Below, in pieces: positions 5,697 through 39,077 of a DNA stretch of 45,058 bases (position 1 is the first letter of the stretch; every line of letters starts with the position of its first letter). Origin of the DNA: a bacterium (GTDB taxonomy: Bacteria > Verrucomicrobiota > Kiritimatiellia > CAIKKV01 > CAITUY01). The stretch covers positions 1 through 45,058 of the forward strand of contig JBAWZF010000023.1 in NCBI GenBank assembly GCA_037143175.1, given 5' to 3'. The position numbers and the translations under genes were made by a program. Under the pieces are notes generated by a model, which had not been told where the DNA came from, made no database searches, and saw only the letters and a list, made by a program, of their open reading frames with translations.

Positions 5697-8600
5697 TCAA
5701 CGAACTTGCGTGCGTTCTGGAACATGCGCAGCCAGGGGCCTTCTTCGCCCTTGAAAAGGCCTTGCGGCTTCCAGGACAACTGTACCGCACGGAAAGCCCG
5801 TTCAGGGTGGGGCATCATGATGGTGACGCGCCCGTCCAGGGTGGTGACGCCAGTGAGTCCGCCAGGAGAACTGTTCGGATTGAGTGGATAGTTTTCCGTG
5901 GGCCGTCCATAGTGATCAACAAAGCGGAGCGCGGCCAGTTTACGTGAGGCGATTTCTGCCGCAGACCCTGTTCGCTCAAAGTTGGTGAACCCTTCGCCAT
6001 GGGCGACAGGAATGGGAATGCGGGAGCCTTCCATTCCCTTAAACAGGATCGAGGGGGACGACAGAATTTCGAGCGTCGCGAAGCGGGCTTCAAACTGCTC
6101 GATCTTATTGCGGGTAAAGCGCGGCCACGCCTCGGCACCGGGAATGATGTCCTTGAGCAGAGAGACCATCTGGCAGCCATTACAGACGCCCAGGGTAAAG
6201 GAGTCCGGCCGCTGGAAAAAGGTCTGGAACATGTCGCGCAGGCGTTCATTGAAAAGAATGCTTCTCGCCCACCCGGCGCCGGCGCCCAGGACATCACCGT
6301 AAGAGAATCCGCCACAGGCGACCAGCCCTGAGAAGTTGGCCAGATTGACGCGGCTGGAGAGCAAGTCGGTCATGTGTACATCCACACTGGTGAAACCTGC
6401 CCGCTCGAACGCGGCTGCCATTTCTATGTGCCCATTAATTCCTTGCTCCCGTAAAATGGCCATCTTGGGCCTATTTCCGCCAATATTAAAGGGCTGGCAG
6501 GGATCATAGGTCAGTTTAAATGAGAGGCCGGGATCTGATTCGTCTTTGAGGGCATCGAATTCCTGGCGCGCACATTCGGCATTATCGCGGCGGGATTGCA
6601 TCTCACTGGTCAACTCCGACCAGATACGCTTGAGCTCAATGACATTACCCTGAAAAATGGAGGCATCTCCCATTTGGATGGAAAGCGATTTGTCTGCCAC
6701 GGGACTGCCCAGAATGAAGGCAAGGTCGCCGAGTTCATGGCGCTTGAGGATCTCGTTGACGTGGGCAATGTGTTGATCGGATACCTGTATGACGGCCCCG
6801 AGTTCCTCTGAGAACAAGATGGAGAAAGGTTCATCGCCAAGTTCGTCGATTTGAACCCGGAGGCCTTGATGGGCTCCAAAGGCCATCTCGGCTAAAGTCG
6901 CAAACAGTCCGCCATCCGAACGGTCATGATAGGCTAACAGGAGCCCTTCGCGAATTAATTCCTGCATCGCTCCATAGAAATTCACCATGTCCGCCGGGCA
7001 ATCCAGATTCGGTGGCGTGGCCCCCACCTGGTTGTAAACCTGGGCCAGCGCCGAGGCGCCTAACCGGTTCTGCCCTCGCCCGAGATCCAACAGGATCAGC
7101 ACGGAATCCGGAACAGGCTTGAGTTCGGCGGTAACCGTTTTACGGACATCCTGCACGGGGGAGAAGGCGCTAACGACCAGGCTGAGGGGGGCGACCTGTT
7201 TTTCGGCTTTCCCCTTTGAATCCTGCCAGGTAGTACGCATGGAGAGCGAATCCTTGCCCACCGGGATAGAGATCCCGAGTGCCGGGCACAGTTCCAGGCC
7301 CACGGCCCGGACGGTATCAAACAGGGCGGCATCCTCGCCCTTCTCGCCACAGGCGCACATCCAGTTGGCGGAGAGCTTCACATTGCCGATGGGCCCGGTG
7401 AAGGTTCCTGCAATGTTGGTCAACGCTTCGCCCACAGCCATTCTGCCTGAGGCGGGCGCATTAAGGATGGCGATGGGGGTTCTTTCGCCCATGGACATGG
7501 CTTCGCCGACATAGCCGTCAAACATGGCGGCAGTCACAGCGGCATCGGCGATGGGGGTCTGGTAGGGCCCCGTCATCTGGTCACGGGTGACCATTCCTGT
7601 TACGGACCGGTCGGTGATGGTGATGAGAAAGGTTTTGTTGGCTACTGCCGGCAGGCGGAGAACCCGCTCGACGGCTTCGTTCAAGTCAATTCCGGAGAGA
7701 TCCAGCTCGGCGTGGGTTTCCTGCCGATGTTGAACATCCCGCAGCATTTTGGGCGGCTTGCCGAAGATGACCTGCAGGTCGATATCAATGGAATTATTTT
7801 TAAAATGGGAATCATGGAGTACGAGCCGTTTGTCATCTGTGGCCTGACCAATGACAGCCGCAGGACAGCGTTCGCGCCGGCAGAGTGCCATAAAGCAATC
7901 CAGGCTTTCAGGGGCCACGGCCAGGACGTAACGTTCCTGGGCCTCACAGCACCAGATTTCCATCGGACTCATGGACATTTCTTCGTTCAGGATCTTGCGA
8001 AGTTCAAAGCGGCCCCCGGTTTCTGAGACGAGTTCGGGGCAGCCATTGGAAAGTCCGCCAGCCCCGATATCGTGGATGCTTACGATGGGATTTGCGTCAT
8101 TCAGTGCAATACAGGAATTGATAACTTCCTGACACCGGCGTTGGATTTCGGCGTTGTCGCGTTGCACGGAATCGAAATCGAGTTTCTCGGCGTTGCTGCC
8201 ACTGCCCATGGATGAAGCCGCTCCGCCACCCAGTCCAATTCGTAAGGCCGGCCCGCCTAGCTGAATGATATGGGTGCCGGTTTGGATGGGCTTTTTCAGC
8301 ACGTGCTGGCGCTTGATGTTACCCATGCCGCCCGCCACCATGATGGGCTTGTGATAGCCACGGTCACGCTCATTGTGGCGGTGTTCATACGTCCTGAAAA
8401 TACCGGTTAACTGAGGCCGTCCGAATTCGTTGCCGAACCGTGCGCCGCCCAGTGGACCATCGGTCATGATTTCGAGCGGGGTGGCGAGCCGGGTGGGGAA
8501 TTCGGCATGATCTTTTTCCCAGGGCATCACAAAGCCGGGGATCTTAAGGTTGGATACAAAGAAAGCGGAGAGCCCGGCTTTCGGGCGTCCGCCGATTCCC

Positions 8601-10639: not shown

Positions 10640-12400
10640 TTAAGCCCTCGTGATGTTTACCAGGATTCGCTCGGCACCGAGATTTTCAAGCCCTGCTGCG
10701 ATCAGGAGCTTGCTGAGTCGACGTTCAGCCAGGGGAATGACCCGCTTGACCCGGATGTTGTCCTTGCGGCAAAGGTTGAGAAAGTCCTGCCAGGTGGCCA
10801 GATGAATATTGGGCGTATCGTACCATTCGAACGGTAACGCATCGGTCTTGGGCATCCGTCCGGTGACGCCCAGTCTGAGCCGGTTATGCCAGTTGGCAAA
10901 GTTCGGGAAACTGACAATCCCTTCACGAGCAATACGCAGCATCTCATGGAGGACTTCACGGGGATGTCGCACCACCTGAAGAGTCTGGCTTAATACGACG
11001 AAGTCGTAGGTCTGGTCGGGAATCATGTCGAGTTTCTGGTCAATATCACTATGGAAAACGTCGAGATTCTTACCCATGGCGGCGATCAGATGGCTCAACT
11101 CGATATCCACACCCATGCCGGAAGTTTGCCGGTTCGCAGTCAGAAGGGAGAGCAAATCGCCATCGCCACAGCCGAGATCGAGTACCCGTGAACCGGGTTC
11201 GATCAGGGAGGCAATCAGGTCGTAATCGTCACGCTTGACCGCCTTGACGGGCGCGGCACATTGAGCACAGCCGCCCAGGAAGGTGCAGATGACCTGTGAG
11301 GTCTGGTCGATATCCACCAGAAAGGCATCATGGCCATAGGGCGCCTTGAGCAGGCAATACGAGATGGGTTTTCCGATTTGGACCAGGGCTGAGGCGATTT
11401 CCAATGACTGTTCGGGCGGGAATAGCCAGTCGGAACTCAACGCCACAATCAGGAAGCGGGCTTTCACATTCTGGAAGGCGGTTTTGAGGTCGCCATAAGA
11501 TTCAGCCAGATCATAGCTGTCCATGGCCTGGGTAATGTGCAGATAGGAGTTGGAGTCGAACCGTTCGACGAATTTTTCGCCTTGATATTGAAGATAACTT
11601 TCGACCTCGAAACGGGTTCTGAAACGTTCCCCTGCCGGGTTCTCTTTTTTCTTCCGCCCGAATTTGCGAGTCATGATTTCCGGGGAAAGATAGGTGATGT
11701 GGCCCAGCATACGGGCAGCGGCCAATCCATTGCTGGGTTGTGTGCCGGTGCCATAATAATCGCCCTGCGCCCAGCCGGGGTCACTGGTGATCACTTCGCG
11801 GCCAACGATATCAAAGGCCAGCGCCTGGGCCGAAAGTGAGGCCGCGCTGGCGAGACAGATGCAGCGCTCAGGCATATCGGGGTAACGGATGCTCCACTCC
11901 AGAACTTGCATGCCCCCAAAGGAGCCGCCGATAATGGCGTAGAGCCGGTCAATTCCGAGATGGTTTAGCAGCAGATAGTGCGCGTGGACGATGTCGCCGA
12001 TGGTGATGTTCGGGAAGGCGGCGCCATAGGGGGTGCCCGTGGCCGGATTGATCGAGGCGGGGCCGGTGGTCCCCTTGCAGCCGCCCAGAATATTGGCGCA
12101 GATGACGTGGAAGCGGTTGGTATCAATCCCTTTCCCCGGGCCGATCATGGCATCCCACCAACCTTGGGTTTTCGGGTCTGCAGAATGATACCCGGCGACA
12201 TGGGCATCTCCAGTGAGGGCGTGACAGATGAAAACCACGTTGTCTTTGGCGGGATTCAATGTGCCATAGGTCTCGTAAGCAACAGTCAATTCTGGCAAAG
12301 CATTCCCGCCTTCGAGTGTGAACCCACCCGGAGGAAGCGTAATGGTGGCCAGCTTCGTCTCCACCAGCCCGACTGATTGTTCGAGATTTATCTTATCCAT
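10640..12400 (-). CDS. metX-metW: Fused homoserine O-acetyltransferase / MetW
   Basis: Two methionine proteins are joined in one 586-residue chain. The MetX half (about residues 1-375) is an alpha/beta-hydrolase-fold acyltransferase. It has the nucleophile serine in GGSFGGMQVLEW (about 158), the aspartate in LSSDWLFPPEQS (about 325) and the histidine in YGHDAFLVD (about 354). The MetW half starts near 385 with DDYDLIASLIEPGSRVLDLG and has MetW-type methyltransferase-like motifs (CGDGDLL, VVLSQTLQVVRHP, FPNFANWHNRL). MetX makes O-acetylhomoserine, and MetW is known to support MetX in several bacteria. The first ATG in frame is 12400; a TTG at 12427 would add nine residues. A CxxC-like linker (GGCAQCAAPV) sits between the halves. 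cysE follows, separated by the hexamer hairpin. Confidence 0.93.
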   Translation of the reverse strand: MDKINLEQSVGLVETKLATITLPPGGFTLEGGNALPELTVAYETYGTLNPAKDNVVFICHALTGDAHVAGYHSADPKTQGWWDAMIGPGKGIDTNRFHVICANILGGCKGTTGPASINPATGTPYGAAFPNITIGDIVHAHYLLLNHLGIDRLYAIIGGSFGGMQVLEWSIRYPDMPERCICLASAASLSAQALAFDIVGREVITSDPGWAQGDYYGTGTQPSNGLAAARMLGHITYLSPEIMTRKFGRKKKENPAGERFRTRFEVESYLQYQGEKFVERFDSNSYLHITQAMDSYDLAESYGDLKTAFQNVKARFLIVALSSDWLFPPEQSLEIASALVQIGKPISYCLLKAPYGHDAFLVDIDQTSQVICTFLGGCAQCAAPVKAVKRDDYDLIASLIEPGSRVLDLGCGDGDLLSLLTANRQTSGMGVDIELSHLIAAMGKNLDVFHSDIDQKLDMIPDQTYDFVVLSQTLQVVRHPREVLHEMLRIAREGIVSFPNFANWHNRLRLGVTGRMPKTDALPFEWYDTPNIHLATWQDFLNLCRKDNIRVKRVIPLAERRLSKLLIAAGLENLGAERILVNITRA

Positions 12401-12503
12401 GACCTGATACTTAATAACTGCATTCAAATCCGTTCCGGAAACCTTCTTATCTAGCGGTCAGAGAGCTAAAAGTCAAACACTGGCATCTTGGCGGGACGCC
12501 AAA

Positions 12504-12616
12504 GCTGAAAAAGGTGGCGTTCGACGTCCTCGGCGAACGCATTGTCCATTTAAAGTCCCCATATCGCCCAGCCGCCGGGGACGTCGGCTGCCACCTGAGC
12601 TTCGCTCTTTTTACAG
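12504..12616. repeat. Imperfect long inverted repeat with nested hairpins
   Basis: Left arm about 12504-12540 and right arm about 12570-12616 are inverted copies of a unit containing GGTGGC, a GACGTCC core and a short self-complementary stem. In the left copy the inner stem is GTTCG/CGAAC; in the right copy it is AGCCG/CGGCT. Both flank the GACGTCC core, so the stem changes are compensatory. A third copy of the unit is at about 39135-39161. It lies between cutA and metX-metW and codes for nothing visible. Confidence 0.75.
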
Positions 12617-12625
12617 CCGACAGTC

Positions 12626-12955
12626 TCAGGACCTCTTTGAGGTTTCCTGGTGGATCCAGTTGAGGTAGGGGGGGTGACCCCCGAGGATTGGGGTTACAAT
12701 GATTTCAGGGATCTCGTAAGGATGATGGGTACGGATGAAGTCCTGAAGTTCAGGAGCAAGGTTGGCCGGGGTTTTACATTGGAGGATAAACTCAGTGCCC
12801 GACTCCATTTTCCCCTGCCACCAATAGACGCTGCGAATGGGCCAGAACTGAACGCAGGCAGCCAGTCTGGTGGAGGTGATAAGTTCCGCAAGTTTCACCG
12901 CCAGGTCTTCGGTCTCAACGGTCGTTGTGACGATTACATATGAGGTGTCATCCAT
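12626..12955 (-). CDS. cutA: Divalent-cation tolerance protein CutA
   Basis: The product is a 109-residue CutA1 family protein that forms stable trimers and is tied by name to copper tolerance. The core motifs are VIVTTTVETEDLAVKLAELI at the N-terminus, RLAACVQFWPIRSVYWWQGKM in the middle, and HPYEIPEIIVTPILGGHPPYLNWI at the end, where the family usually has YPYxVPEI. I chose ATG at 12955 because it gives the normal family length. The reading frame stays open upstream to 13099, but those residues look unlike CutA. No good ribosome site is visible before the ATG. It lies divergent from the LacI hybrid gene and upstream of metX-metW. Confidence 0.88.
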   Translation of the reverse strand: MDDTSYVIVTTTVETEDLAVKLAELITSTRLAACVQFWPIRSVYWWQGKMESGTEFILQCKTPANLAPELQDFIRTHHPYEIPEIIVTPILGGHPPYLNWIHQETSKRS

Positions 12956-13101
12956 GGAAGTAAAGATACCTAATTGTGGTAGCCACGGCAAGGCGATAGC
13001 ACTTGGTTTTGGAGTGCGGCGGCTTGACCTGCGCTTTTCATCGGCGCGGCTTGACGCGCTTTCTGTTATAAATACCTCGTTGAATATTAATAACAGCAAT
13101 G

Positions 13102-19028: not shown

Positions 19029-20308
19029 TTTTTATTTCTCTTCTTCGCCGCAAATTCCGGCGCCTCTTTGATGCAGGTGCCGAGGATTGAGAGGGATTTC
19101 TTGAATAACTTCCAGCTATCCCGTTTCAACTCCAGCGGATCTTCCCCGACATTCGCCCAGCCGGGAGTTGTCAGGTCATCCGGGGGGATGGCCACTTTGT
19201 CCCAATTATGGAATAGCCGGCCCCAGGGACTATGCAAAATGTCATGAACCAGTTTCTGATGGGTGGGATACCAGAACGAATCGTGATAAATCACGCTTGC
19301 AATGTAAGCCCAAGGCGCCAGAACAGTCTTTAACGACCATTCGATAGGTTTGCGAAGGGGGCCCCAATAGATTTTATGCTGCATCTTGCTGGCAAATGTC
19401 ATTTTTTTGAAAGGACCGACGAAATGCCAATCTTCCTTCAATGCGTCAGGATCGCCCACAATCTCAATATCGCGAATATCCCCGCAGCCAAGCCCGGCAT
19501 CATGCGCCAATCGGATAAACTTAATGTCTTGTAAAGGGTTGAAGCCCATAAGTTTAGCGGCAACAGCATCGATCGCAACCTGATCCGATGATGCCAGAAT
19601 CACGTTTTTGACATGCGGAATCATACAACGGGGGCCGGGTCCATCCCCTGCGAACGTGCCATCCATGACGGCAAAGATGCCCGGATGGATTTTCTGCTGG
19701 ATTCTTAGCAGATCCACAAGTGTTTCGTGGATAACAGGATGCGTCCAGTGACGGTGTTCATTAAGCAGGCCGCCGAAGGCATTTTTCATGGCACCGGTTG
19801 TGGTCGTGAAAACGTGGGTTTTTACCGTGGGAAGGTGAATGATGTTCTCCCCGATAAACCGCTTCGGAATCATGAATCCATTTGGATATACCTCGTTCAG
19901 GCAGAGGAACTTATCAGCAATTGAGCCCACCGCATCCCGGACATTGATCCAAGGCTCGTTTCCCTCATAGAGATGGACATTGCGGAGCCCATGGGCTTGG
20001 ACGACGTTGAGTTGCTTGTTTTCACGTTCCCCGAGATGAGCGTCAATGACAACGGTTCGGTTATGGCAAGCATGGATATTTGAGGTCGAATAGCCGTCCT
20101 TTTTCATGGCCCGGATGACGCCATCCAATTGCCAGGGGGTGGTTGAACTTCCCGGATAGAAGAAATGCCAGCTGATATTCACTTTCAGGGCGGTGTCGGC
20201 AGTTTTGGAAATGACATTCTGGTACCCGGCCAGATTCATTACCCGGTGATAATCCGCCAGCGCGGTGGCTGGTGACGTCCTGAGGATAGCGACTTTTGAT
20301 TTGCTCAT
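19022..20308 (-). CDS. DUF362-domain protein
   Basis: The product has 428 residues. Family features are VAILRTSPATALADYHRVMN at the start, then VKVNISWHFFYPGSST-type strand-loop, NIIHLPTVKTHVFTTTTGAM (about 170-190), KNAFGGLLNEHRHW, and SSDQVAIDAVAAKLMGFNPL (about 250). DUF362 proteins are a widespread family, sometimes annotated iron-sulfur cluster proteins, but this one has no C-terminal ferredoxin cysteines. The last 150 residues (KMTFASKMQHKIYWGPLRKP and on) are a less common extension. There is no signal peptide. ygiQ follows after a heptamer array and is probably co-transcribed. Function unknown. Confidence 0.8.
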   Translation of the reverse strand: MSKSKVAILRTSPATALADYHRVMNLAGYQNVISKTADTALKVNISWHFFYPGSSTTPWQLDGVIRAMKKDGYSTSNIHACHNRTVVIDAHLGERENKQLNVVQAHGLRNVHLYEGNEPWINVRDAVGSIADKFLCLNEVYPNGFMIPKRFIGENIIHLPTVKTHVFTTTTGAMKNAFGGLLNEHRHWTHPVIHETLVDLLRIQQKIHPGIFAVMDGTFAGDGPGPRCMIPHVKNVILASSDQVAIDAVAAKLMGFNPLQDIKFIRLAHDAGLGCGDIRDIEIVGDPDALKEDWHFVGPFKKMTFASKMQHKIYWGPLRKPIEWSLKTVLAPWAYIASVIYHDSFWYPTHQKLVHDILHSPWGRLFHNWDKVAIPPDDLTTPGWANVGEDPLELKRDSWKLFKKSLSILGTCIKEAPEFAAKKRNKNS

Positions 20309-38138: not shown

Positions 38139-39077
38139 ATGATCAACAGTCCTAATCTTGAGAAAATGAAACTGTCGCTTCGCAACCGCACCGTTGTTGG
38201 AGCCTCCAATACGTCTGAAGAGGCTGCCAATGGTGATCCCAAAGAAACGGGTGTGTCGCGTCAGGATTATTTTCCTTCGCGCATGCTGGGGGAAAAAGTA
38301 AGGCGTAAAAACAACTTTGGTACGGTGGTCGGGCAACTGTTCCTGATATTGTTGCTAATATTGATTCCTTTGGGCGTTTTTTGCTATTTCGATTTATCTG
38401 AATATCGACAATGGGTTACGGCGACTGAACTGCTGCCGGACTTGCGAAAGGCTGCTGGCGACGATGTGAGGGCTGCCGCATTGGCGCAGTTGGCGATAAC
38501 AGTAGATCCTGGAAATGTGTCCTTGAAAAGTGGGCTTTTGGGGGTTTTGGCAATCCGGAAGGTGGGTCTGGGGCAAAGAGAAGTAGGGTTGCGTAATTGC
38601 AAGCAGGTTTGTCAGCAATTCCCAACGTCATGGTTTGCAAGCCAGTTTTCTGAGGCTTCATTTTACGGTTCGTGTCCTGCCTGTGCGGCAAAGGGGTCTG
38701 TCCCAGTACCGTGTTACCGCTGTAAAGGCACCGGGGTATGCTCTCGTTGTGGGGGTTCTGGGGAATGTTCAACTTTTATGGGGAATTCAAGGCCGAGTGG
38801 TTCTGGTGGCGACATTCGGAATACTGGTAAATTTCAAGGAATGGGTGAGAAATGTCTCGACTGTAAAGGTACGATGAGGTGTCGGTATTGTGGCGGAAAA
38901 AAAACACTTTCCGGGACTTGTGCCAAGTGTGAGGGGGAGGGATGCCAGTTCTCTAAGCAAAAGGTCATCGAACAATATCGGGCCGTGATCGATTATGTGC
39001 TGGGGTTGCACCCTTCCTGGGTGGCAACGGTGGTTCGACTCCAGGCGACTGTGAAGTCATGGATTCCGTTTTTTTGA
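38139..39077 (+). CDS. Membrane-anchored DnaJ-type zinc-finger protein, copy 1
   Basis: The product has 312 residues. A polar N-terminal segment of about 65 residues is followed by one membrane helix (LFLILLLILIPLGVFCYF, about 68-85). A helical region of about 90 residues follows, then a Cys-rich zone at about 178-275 with repeated CxxC and CxGxG motifs as in the DnaJ zinc finger (CPACAAKG, CYRCKGTGVCSRCGGSGECS, CLDCKGTMRCRYCGG, CAKCEGEG). There is no J domain. The zinc region probably binds unfolded protein or partners; on which side of the membrane it lies I cannot tell. Bases 38514-39071 recur at 41610-42167 and partly at 44711-44852. The start is uncertain; ATG at 38166 is an alternative. 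Confidence 0.75.
   Translation: MINSPNLEKMKLSLRNRTVVGASNTSEEAANGDPKETGVSRQDYFPSRMLGEKVRRKNNFGTVVGQLFLILLLILIPLGVFCYFDLSEYRQWVTATELLPDLRKAAGDDVRAAALAQLAITVDPGNVSLKSGLLGVLAIRKVGLGQREVGLRNCKQVCQQFPTSWFASQFSEASFYGSCPACAAKGSVPVPCYRCKGTGVCSRCGGSGECSTFMGNSRPSGSGGDIRNTGKFQGMGEKCLDCKGTMRCRYCGGKKTLSGTCAKCEGEGCQFSKQKVIEQYRAVIDYVLGLHPSWVATVVRLQATVKSWIPFF
38514..39071 (+). repeat. Direct repeat copy 1 (558 bp) of the zinc-finger gene
   Basis: This segment matches 41610-42167 with no net insertion or deletion (constant offset of 3096 bases) and scattered substitutions. A shortened third copy is at 44711-44852. All copies are in the same orientation. Confidence 0.92.

Follow-up and report, generated by a model that had tools for sequence, protein, structure and literature searches.

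Judging by their sequence, the hairpin units described here are very probably REPs of the GTAG/GTGG-tagged superfamily, and two of the three units found in the window (the whole stretch of 45,058 nucleotides analysed) very probably make up a REPIN, a non-autonomous element consisting of two inverted REPs. REPs, REPINs and BIMEs are known kinds of element, and what is new is this REP family and its subfamily of RAYTs (REP-associated tyrosine transposases). Both are hereby named in a PVC-group lineage for which a search of the literature returned no REP or RAYT report beyond one survey. Of wider interest is one point only, that two different stems are paired almost without exception. A sequence-only reading of the same DNA had described the element as otherwise unknown, a description that has to be given up in favour of REP.

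The units are laid out as a GGTGG, a stem of 6 bp, an A.G (or G.G) mismatch, a further 2 bp and a TCC(Y) loop, and two stem types were distinguished, "A" (CAGCCG/CGGCTG) and "G" (CGTTCG/CGAACG). The stem sequences AGCCG/CGGCT and GTTCG/CGAAC of the sequence-only reading are as quoted there and belong to these two types, and its three hairpin copies are present within a few bases of where it had placed them (Table 1). Folded as single-stranded DNA, the G-type half of the window pair reached -11.6 kcal/mol (z -3.6, 0 of 200 shuffles as good), the A-type half -10.2 kcal/mol (z -2.9, 2 of 200) and the single unit -11.6 kcal/mol (z -3.8, 0 of 200), each beating nearly all of its shuffles. Together the first two units make up an inverted pair with outward-facing GTGG ends, located in the intergenic region between the end, at 12626, of the ORF 12626-13099 (-) and the start of the ORF 10640-12427 (-). 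Across 55 distinct aligned rows the G5-C28 pair was absent in 30, and since this pair is often not formed, the GTGG tag is unpaired and the stem has 6 bp rather than 7. GGTGG was found in all 34 rows from the window's own genome, which were picked by that very tag. The units hence carry the unpaired 5' GTRG tetranucleotide beside a stem-loop by which REPs of the GTAG superfamily are recognised.

Table 1. Putative REP features of the window.
Feature	Position	Strand	Remarks
REP unit, G type, left half of HH pair	12513..12540	+	GGTGG tag, stem CGTTCG/CGAACG
Spacer of window HH pair, 27 nt	12541..12567	.	
REP unit, A type, right half of HH pair	12568..12595	-	GGTGG tag, stem CAGCCG/CGGCTG
REPIN / HH heterodimer, GTGG tags outside	12513..12595	.	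missing at syntenic site of G006, G008, G009, G010
Single REP unit, A type, 3-nt loop	39136..39162	+	gap after ORF ending at 39077

The units are numerous in the window's genome (G000) and in two relatives, one a sister species of the same genus (G008) and one of the same family (G006). The pattern GGTGGC-N4-GACGTCC, allowing at most one mismatch, had 43 matches in the own genome and its reversed control pattern 11, while GACGTCC alone occurred in the window at chance frequency (6 observed, 5.4 expected). Exact matches numbered 19, among them one at window position 20264 that is without a proper stem, and 34 units were gathered in this genome. The covariance-model search that the sequence-only reading had suggested was run with a model of 25 own-genome units and a nine-pair structure, and it yielded further copies, with strict matches amounting to at least 21 in the own genome, at least 61 in the sister species and at least 9 in G006, lower bounds because only the best candidates per genome were scored. 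Under the same scoring, 14 further genomes of this order had no strict match. Class-wide, strong matches were confined to 3 of 345 genomes, and a draw of the phylum, in which G006 is not listed, gave matches in 2 of 387. An exact-pattern scan of named genomes returned at least 80 stretches, mostly single matches; in PVC group bacterium MiH-14oct19-80 the pattern matched on several contigs, in the same places as in G006. Phage and plasmid collections held no match to the REP units. As expected of REPs, the many copies are mainly extragenic: 90 of 148 units lie outside ORFs, though ORFs, as delimited by a greedy ORF picker rather than a gene caller, take up 79% of this DNA.

The sequence-only reading had taken paired changes in the stems as a sign that structure matters, and these changes are real. 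Over the 55 distinct rows, 92.5% of cells were paired as compared to 80.7% after shuffling and 12-65% in slid versions, both partners had changed in four pairs, and in the 5' arm columns 7-9 covary with the columns they pair with; G-U pairs also occur in the aligned units. These counts lean towards structure because the alignments (A3 and A5) were built from a structure model, A3 including weak matches up to E 0.49, and the cells are not independent events because the units fall into two inherited types. Most double changes are in fact one old split into the A and G stems. Independent compensations are found beyond this split, in the separate stems CATTCG/CGAATG, ATGCCG/CGGCAT, ACGCCG/CGGCGT and CTGCCG/CGGCAG and in stems beside RAYT genes elsewhere. 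All six outer pairs are intact in 135 of 148 units.

Most units form inverted pairs with GTGG outside (HH): neighbours less than 150 nt apart comprised 50 HH, 9 TT and 4 HT arrangements. HH spacers measured 10-32 nt and clustered at 14-15 in G006 and at 17, 20, 22-23 and 29-32 in G008 and G000, so that dimers, HH predominant and with partners tens of nt apart, are present here as in other REPs. All 48 HH pairs with both units typed combined one A with one G stem (10 in G000, 6 in G006 and 32 in G008); the remaining 2 of the 50 contain an untyped unit. At homologous RAYT loci in other genomes the two stems of an HH pair were unlike in 20 of 23 cases, 15 of them by at least two bases.

The surroundings of the window pair are syntenic within the family, and in all four aligned relatives the pair is lacking at this one site. 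Three of them (G009, G010 and G006) have a short stretch and one (G008) unrelated sequence between the conserved flanks, in each case with no REP, and a covariance model over seven syntenic loci gave nothing above 14.2 bits. The absence of the doublet from all four syntenic sites identifies it as an insertion, and at this one site the inserted unit is the doublet, as defines a REPIN. Units also lie inside ORFs. One (G000:C73:3456-3483, minus strand) lies inside an open frame of 1147 codons, whose product reads RWTPTSPAASDGGKDSAIH between the conserved VDE and F(I/V)GR; a single homologue, from G004 (58% identical), was compared and has AAGGIR there, being shorter by 13 residues. Related units are located within an ORF at C7 as well. 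REPs inside ORFs are known from O. terrae (PMC3733652).

A candidate partner is encoded in the sister species, where a 177-aa ORF (G008:C21:3160-3693) sits in a dense REP region. It scored 82.8 bits with the NCBIfam model REP_Tyr_transpos (NF047646, cut-off 80) and its only PDB match was TnpA-REP (4er8, E=8e-9); the Pfam Y1_Tnp search did not find this gene, its score of 19 being below the cut-off of 23. REPs lie about 150 bp before this ORF and immediately after it, the second one overlapping the ORF end, and the paralogue at G008:C25 (71% identical) is likewise bordered by REPs on either side, so that at both loci a RAYT gene is flanked by the same REPs in the manner of a REP-RAYT system (REPtron). 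Some match to the C21 protein was found in 211 of the 345 genomes of the class. At the best 30 loci among these matches, tagged hairpins of the scanned shape were present on both sides in 21, only upstream in 1, only downstream in 1 and on neither side in 7; 93 of the 102 hairpins lay within about 400 bp of the gene, and single-base shuffles gave an expectation of 0.25 per set of 30 loci. Beside the nearer homologues (about 44-53% identical) GGTGG is kept and the core is CGACCTCCGGGCG, while the outer stems differ between genomes; a sequence-only pattern picked out 11 distinct stems, in which 110 of 112 outer cells pair. More distant homologues are accompanied by a GGTAG tag. HxH, Tyr and NPV were invariant in 9 of 9 aligned RAYTs. 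One RAYT subfamily with differing yet paired stems in many genomes constitutes a natural series.

No close RAYT was detected in the window's own genome (95% complete), in which the best matches, at 1.7e-6 and weaker, all belong to other groups, nor was a close member of the C21 group detected in G006 (83% complete). Without a close RAYT the copies of the own genome look like a left-over population, and they are probably relics that no longer spread. REPs remaining after the loss of a RAYT have been described (PMC3686654).

Other repeats and transposases are found in the same genomes. The window itself contains, at 13008-13060, a copy of a second repeat of about 52 bp (GGAGTGCGGCGGCTTGAC..) that has dozens of copies and is listed in 7 of 9 family genomes. 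As this repeat flanks another RAYT-like gene in the own genome (L296:1351-1935, G000:C7), it probably represents a further REP family served by a RAYT of its own. Two further RAYTs considered as partners, L205 and L206, were rejected on account of their own GTGGGAGGGGC.. repeats; the L206 gene (L206:1562-2272, G008:C15; NF047646, 107 bits) has 32-nt inverted flanks, TTGTGGGAGGGGCGCTATGCGCCGCGACTCTT, which are a further GTGG-type REP family in G008. Short tandem palindromes, GGGCAAGCCGRCAGGKGGAT (L200:3180-3330 and L212:2090-2230), follow related IS200-like genes in G008 and G006 (66% identical). At G008:C21 (L202:4407-8422) in-frame palindromic inserts reading 'CGVDVPIHL..RRMGTSAPQ' or 'VWGGCPHPP..ADEDIRPT' are present in several adjacent genes, among them a RAYT (5983-6753) and two ORFs resembling glycosyltransferases; this repeat is seemingly in frame within coding sequence. 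At G008:C33 (L209:1-5000) a cassette-like array of small genes, some of them toxin-antitoxin-like by eye, is separated by composites of about 150 nt that consist of a TT REP pair and the motif AACTCAATAGGGACACACAAATAGTT of 26 nt, which is similar over part of its length to the TIR of a 338-aa Y1 transposase group. Integron attC was dismissed for this TT array, as the palindrome does not seem to fit the features of attC sites.

By analogy with known RAYTs, the pair would fold when single-stranded during replication or repair, and the RAYT, a Y1/HUH single-strand nuclease-transposase, would recognise the tag and the mismatched stem, cut beside the REP and then move or copy the pair. If the RAYT reads shape, tag and core, the outer stem would be free to change provided that both arms change together. 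In the described systems the tagged strand of a single-stranded REP is bound by TnpA-REP, which makes use of the tag together with the stem irregularity and cuts next to the REP, and REP doublets excise (PMC8266576, PMC3116915).

The strict A+G composition invites the tentative, on balance doubtful, suggestion that the two stem types, A and G, mark non-equivalent ends, IS200/IS605-like, of which the RAYT needs one each; this would account for the A+G make-up of every typed HH pair. The RAYT gene at G008:C25 has an A unit on one side and an inverted G unit on the other, which is what an autonomous version of the pair would show. Alternatively, identical halves may form long perfect palindromes that are then lost; the avoidance of long palindromes through unlike stems has been suggested for REP dimers (PMC3733652). 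Should the A and G stems be two ends, the heterodimer preference of REPs in print would gain a mechanistic cause. Given the strict A+G rule, a small protein and two short oligonucleotides would be enough to ask in vitro why REP dimers favour unlike partners.

Structured RNA elements, such as a terminator, a riboswitch or an mRNA stabiliser conserved for transcript function, would explain the paired changes by RNA folding, and both the enrichment outside ORFs (90 of 148 units against 21% non-coding DNA) and the G-U pairs would suit them. We regard this as quite improbable, for the Rfam scan of the window returned no family at gathering score, T-rich tails as in intrinsic terminators (at least 5 T among the 8 nt that follow the hairpin) accompany only 14 of 148 units, and inverted pairs, absence at orthologous sites and linkage to a RAYT would all be unexpected; a secondary RNA effect of the units may nevertheless exist. 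An even slimmer chance is given to the idea that the REPs belong to another transposase and that their linkage to the G008 RAYT is incidental. The Y1 gene at G000:C82 lies between two TT pairs (63-147 and 7063-7147), and in G008:C8 a TT pair stands 135 bp upstream of a 336-aa Y1 gene. However, the C82 and C10 genes (L009:813-1967 and L041:4434-5555) are Y1 transposases with terminal inverted repeats of their own containing GGGTCAGCCCTTA, for which C82 was dropped as a partner, members L204, L207, L208 and L040 of the 338-aa group had no REP match in the flanks covered, and REPs stand on either side of both RAYT paralogues of G008, a layout repeated by homologues elsewhere. The 338-aa and L200/L212 groups were likewise set aside, since they have different repeats or, for the most part, lack a nearby REP. 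That the units are chance hairpins in GC-rich DNA is next to inconceivable. The 7-nt core is at chance level and single pattern matches in GC-rich actinobacteria do look like chance, but the copy number together with the 43 matches against 11 in the control, the fold z-scores, the covariation and the slid controls refutes it.

The preferred reading, REPs mobilised as REPINs by a RAYT, is in line with several described systems. With GTAG-tagged REPs (PMC3733652) the units share the unpaired 5' GTRG tag, a stem-loop with a stem of mostly 6-9 bp, HH and TT dimers with heterodimers preferred, some units within ORFs and a host of the PVC superphylum. GTAG-20 of Opitutus terrae has a tag that is mostly GTGG in that survey (PMC3733652); the present core, CGACGTCC(Y)CGGCG with its A.G mismatch and two stems, is likened to it by description. 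TIR-associated Y1 transposases as in PMC3733652 are resembled by the C82 and C10 genes. CGTC-tagged REPs, which end in a CGTC tag and have no linked transposase, were discarded as a class for the units, whose CGTC is in the inner stem and loop and whose RAYT is linked. As in the REPINs of Pseudomonas fluorescens (PMC3116915), the inverted doublet would be the mobile unit, singlets would be relics and the RAYT is linked to its REPs, while here the halves differ in stem in every fully typed HH pair. The BIMEs of E. coli, with their y and z REPs and TnpA-REP (PMC8266576, PMC2817692), likewise combine two REP types and have a stem mismatch, a GTRG tag and a Y1 transposase; in contrast to them, the units described here have a GTGG tag, a short TCC(Y) loop and an A.G mismatch replacing the AA-GC bulge.
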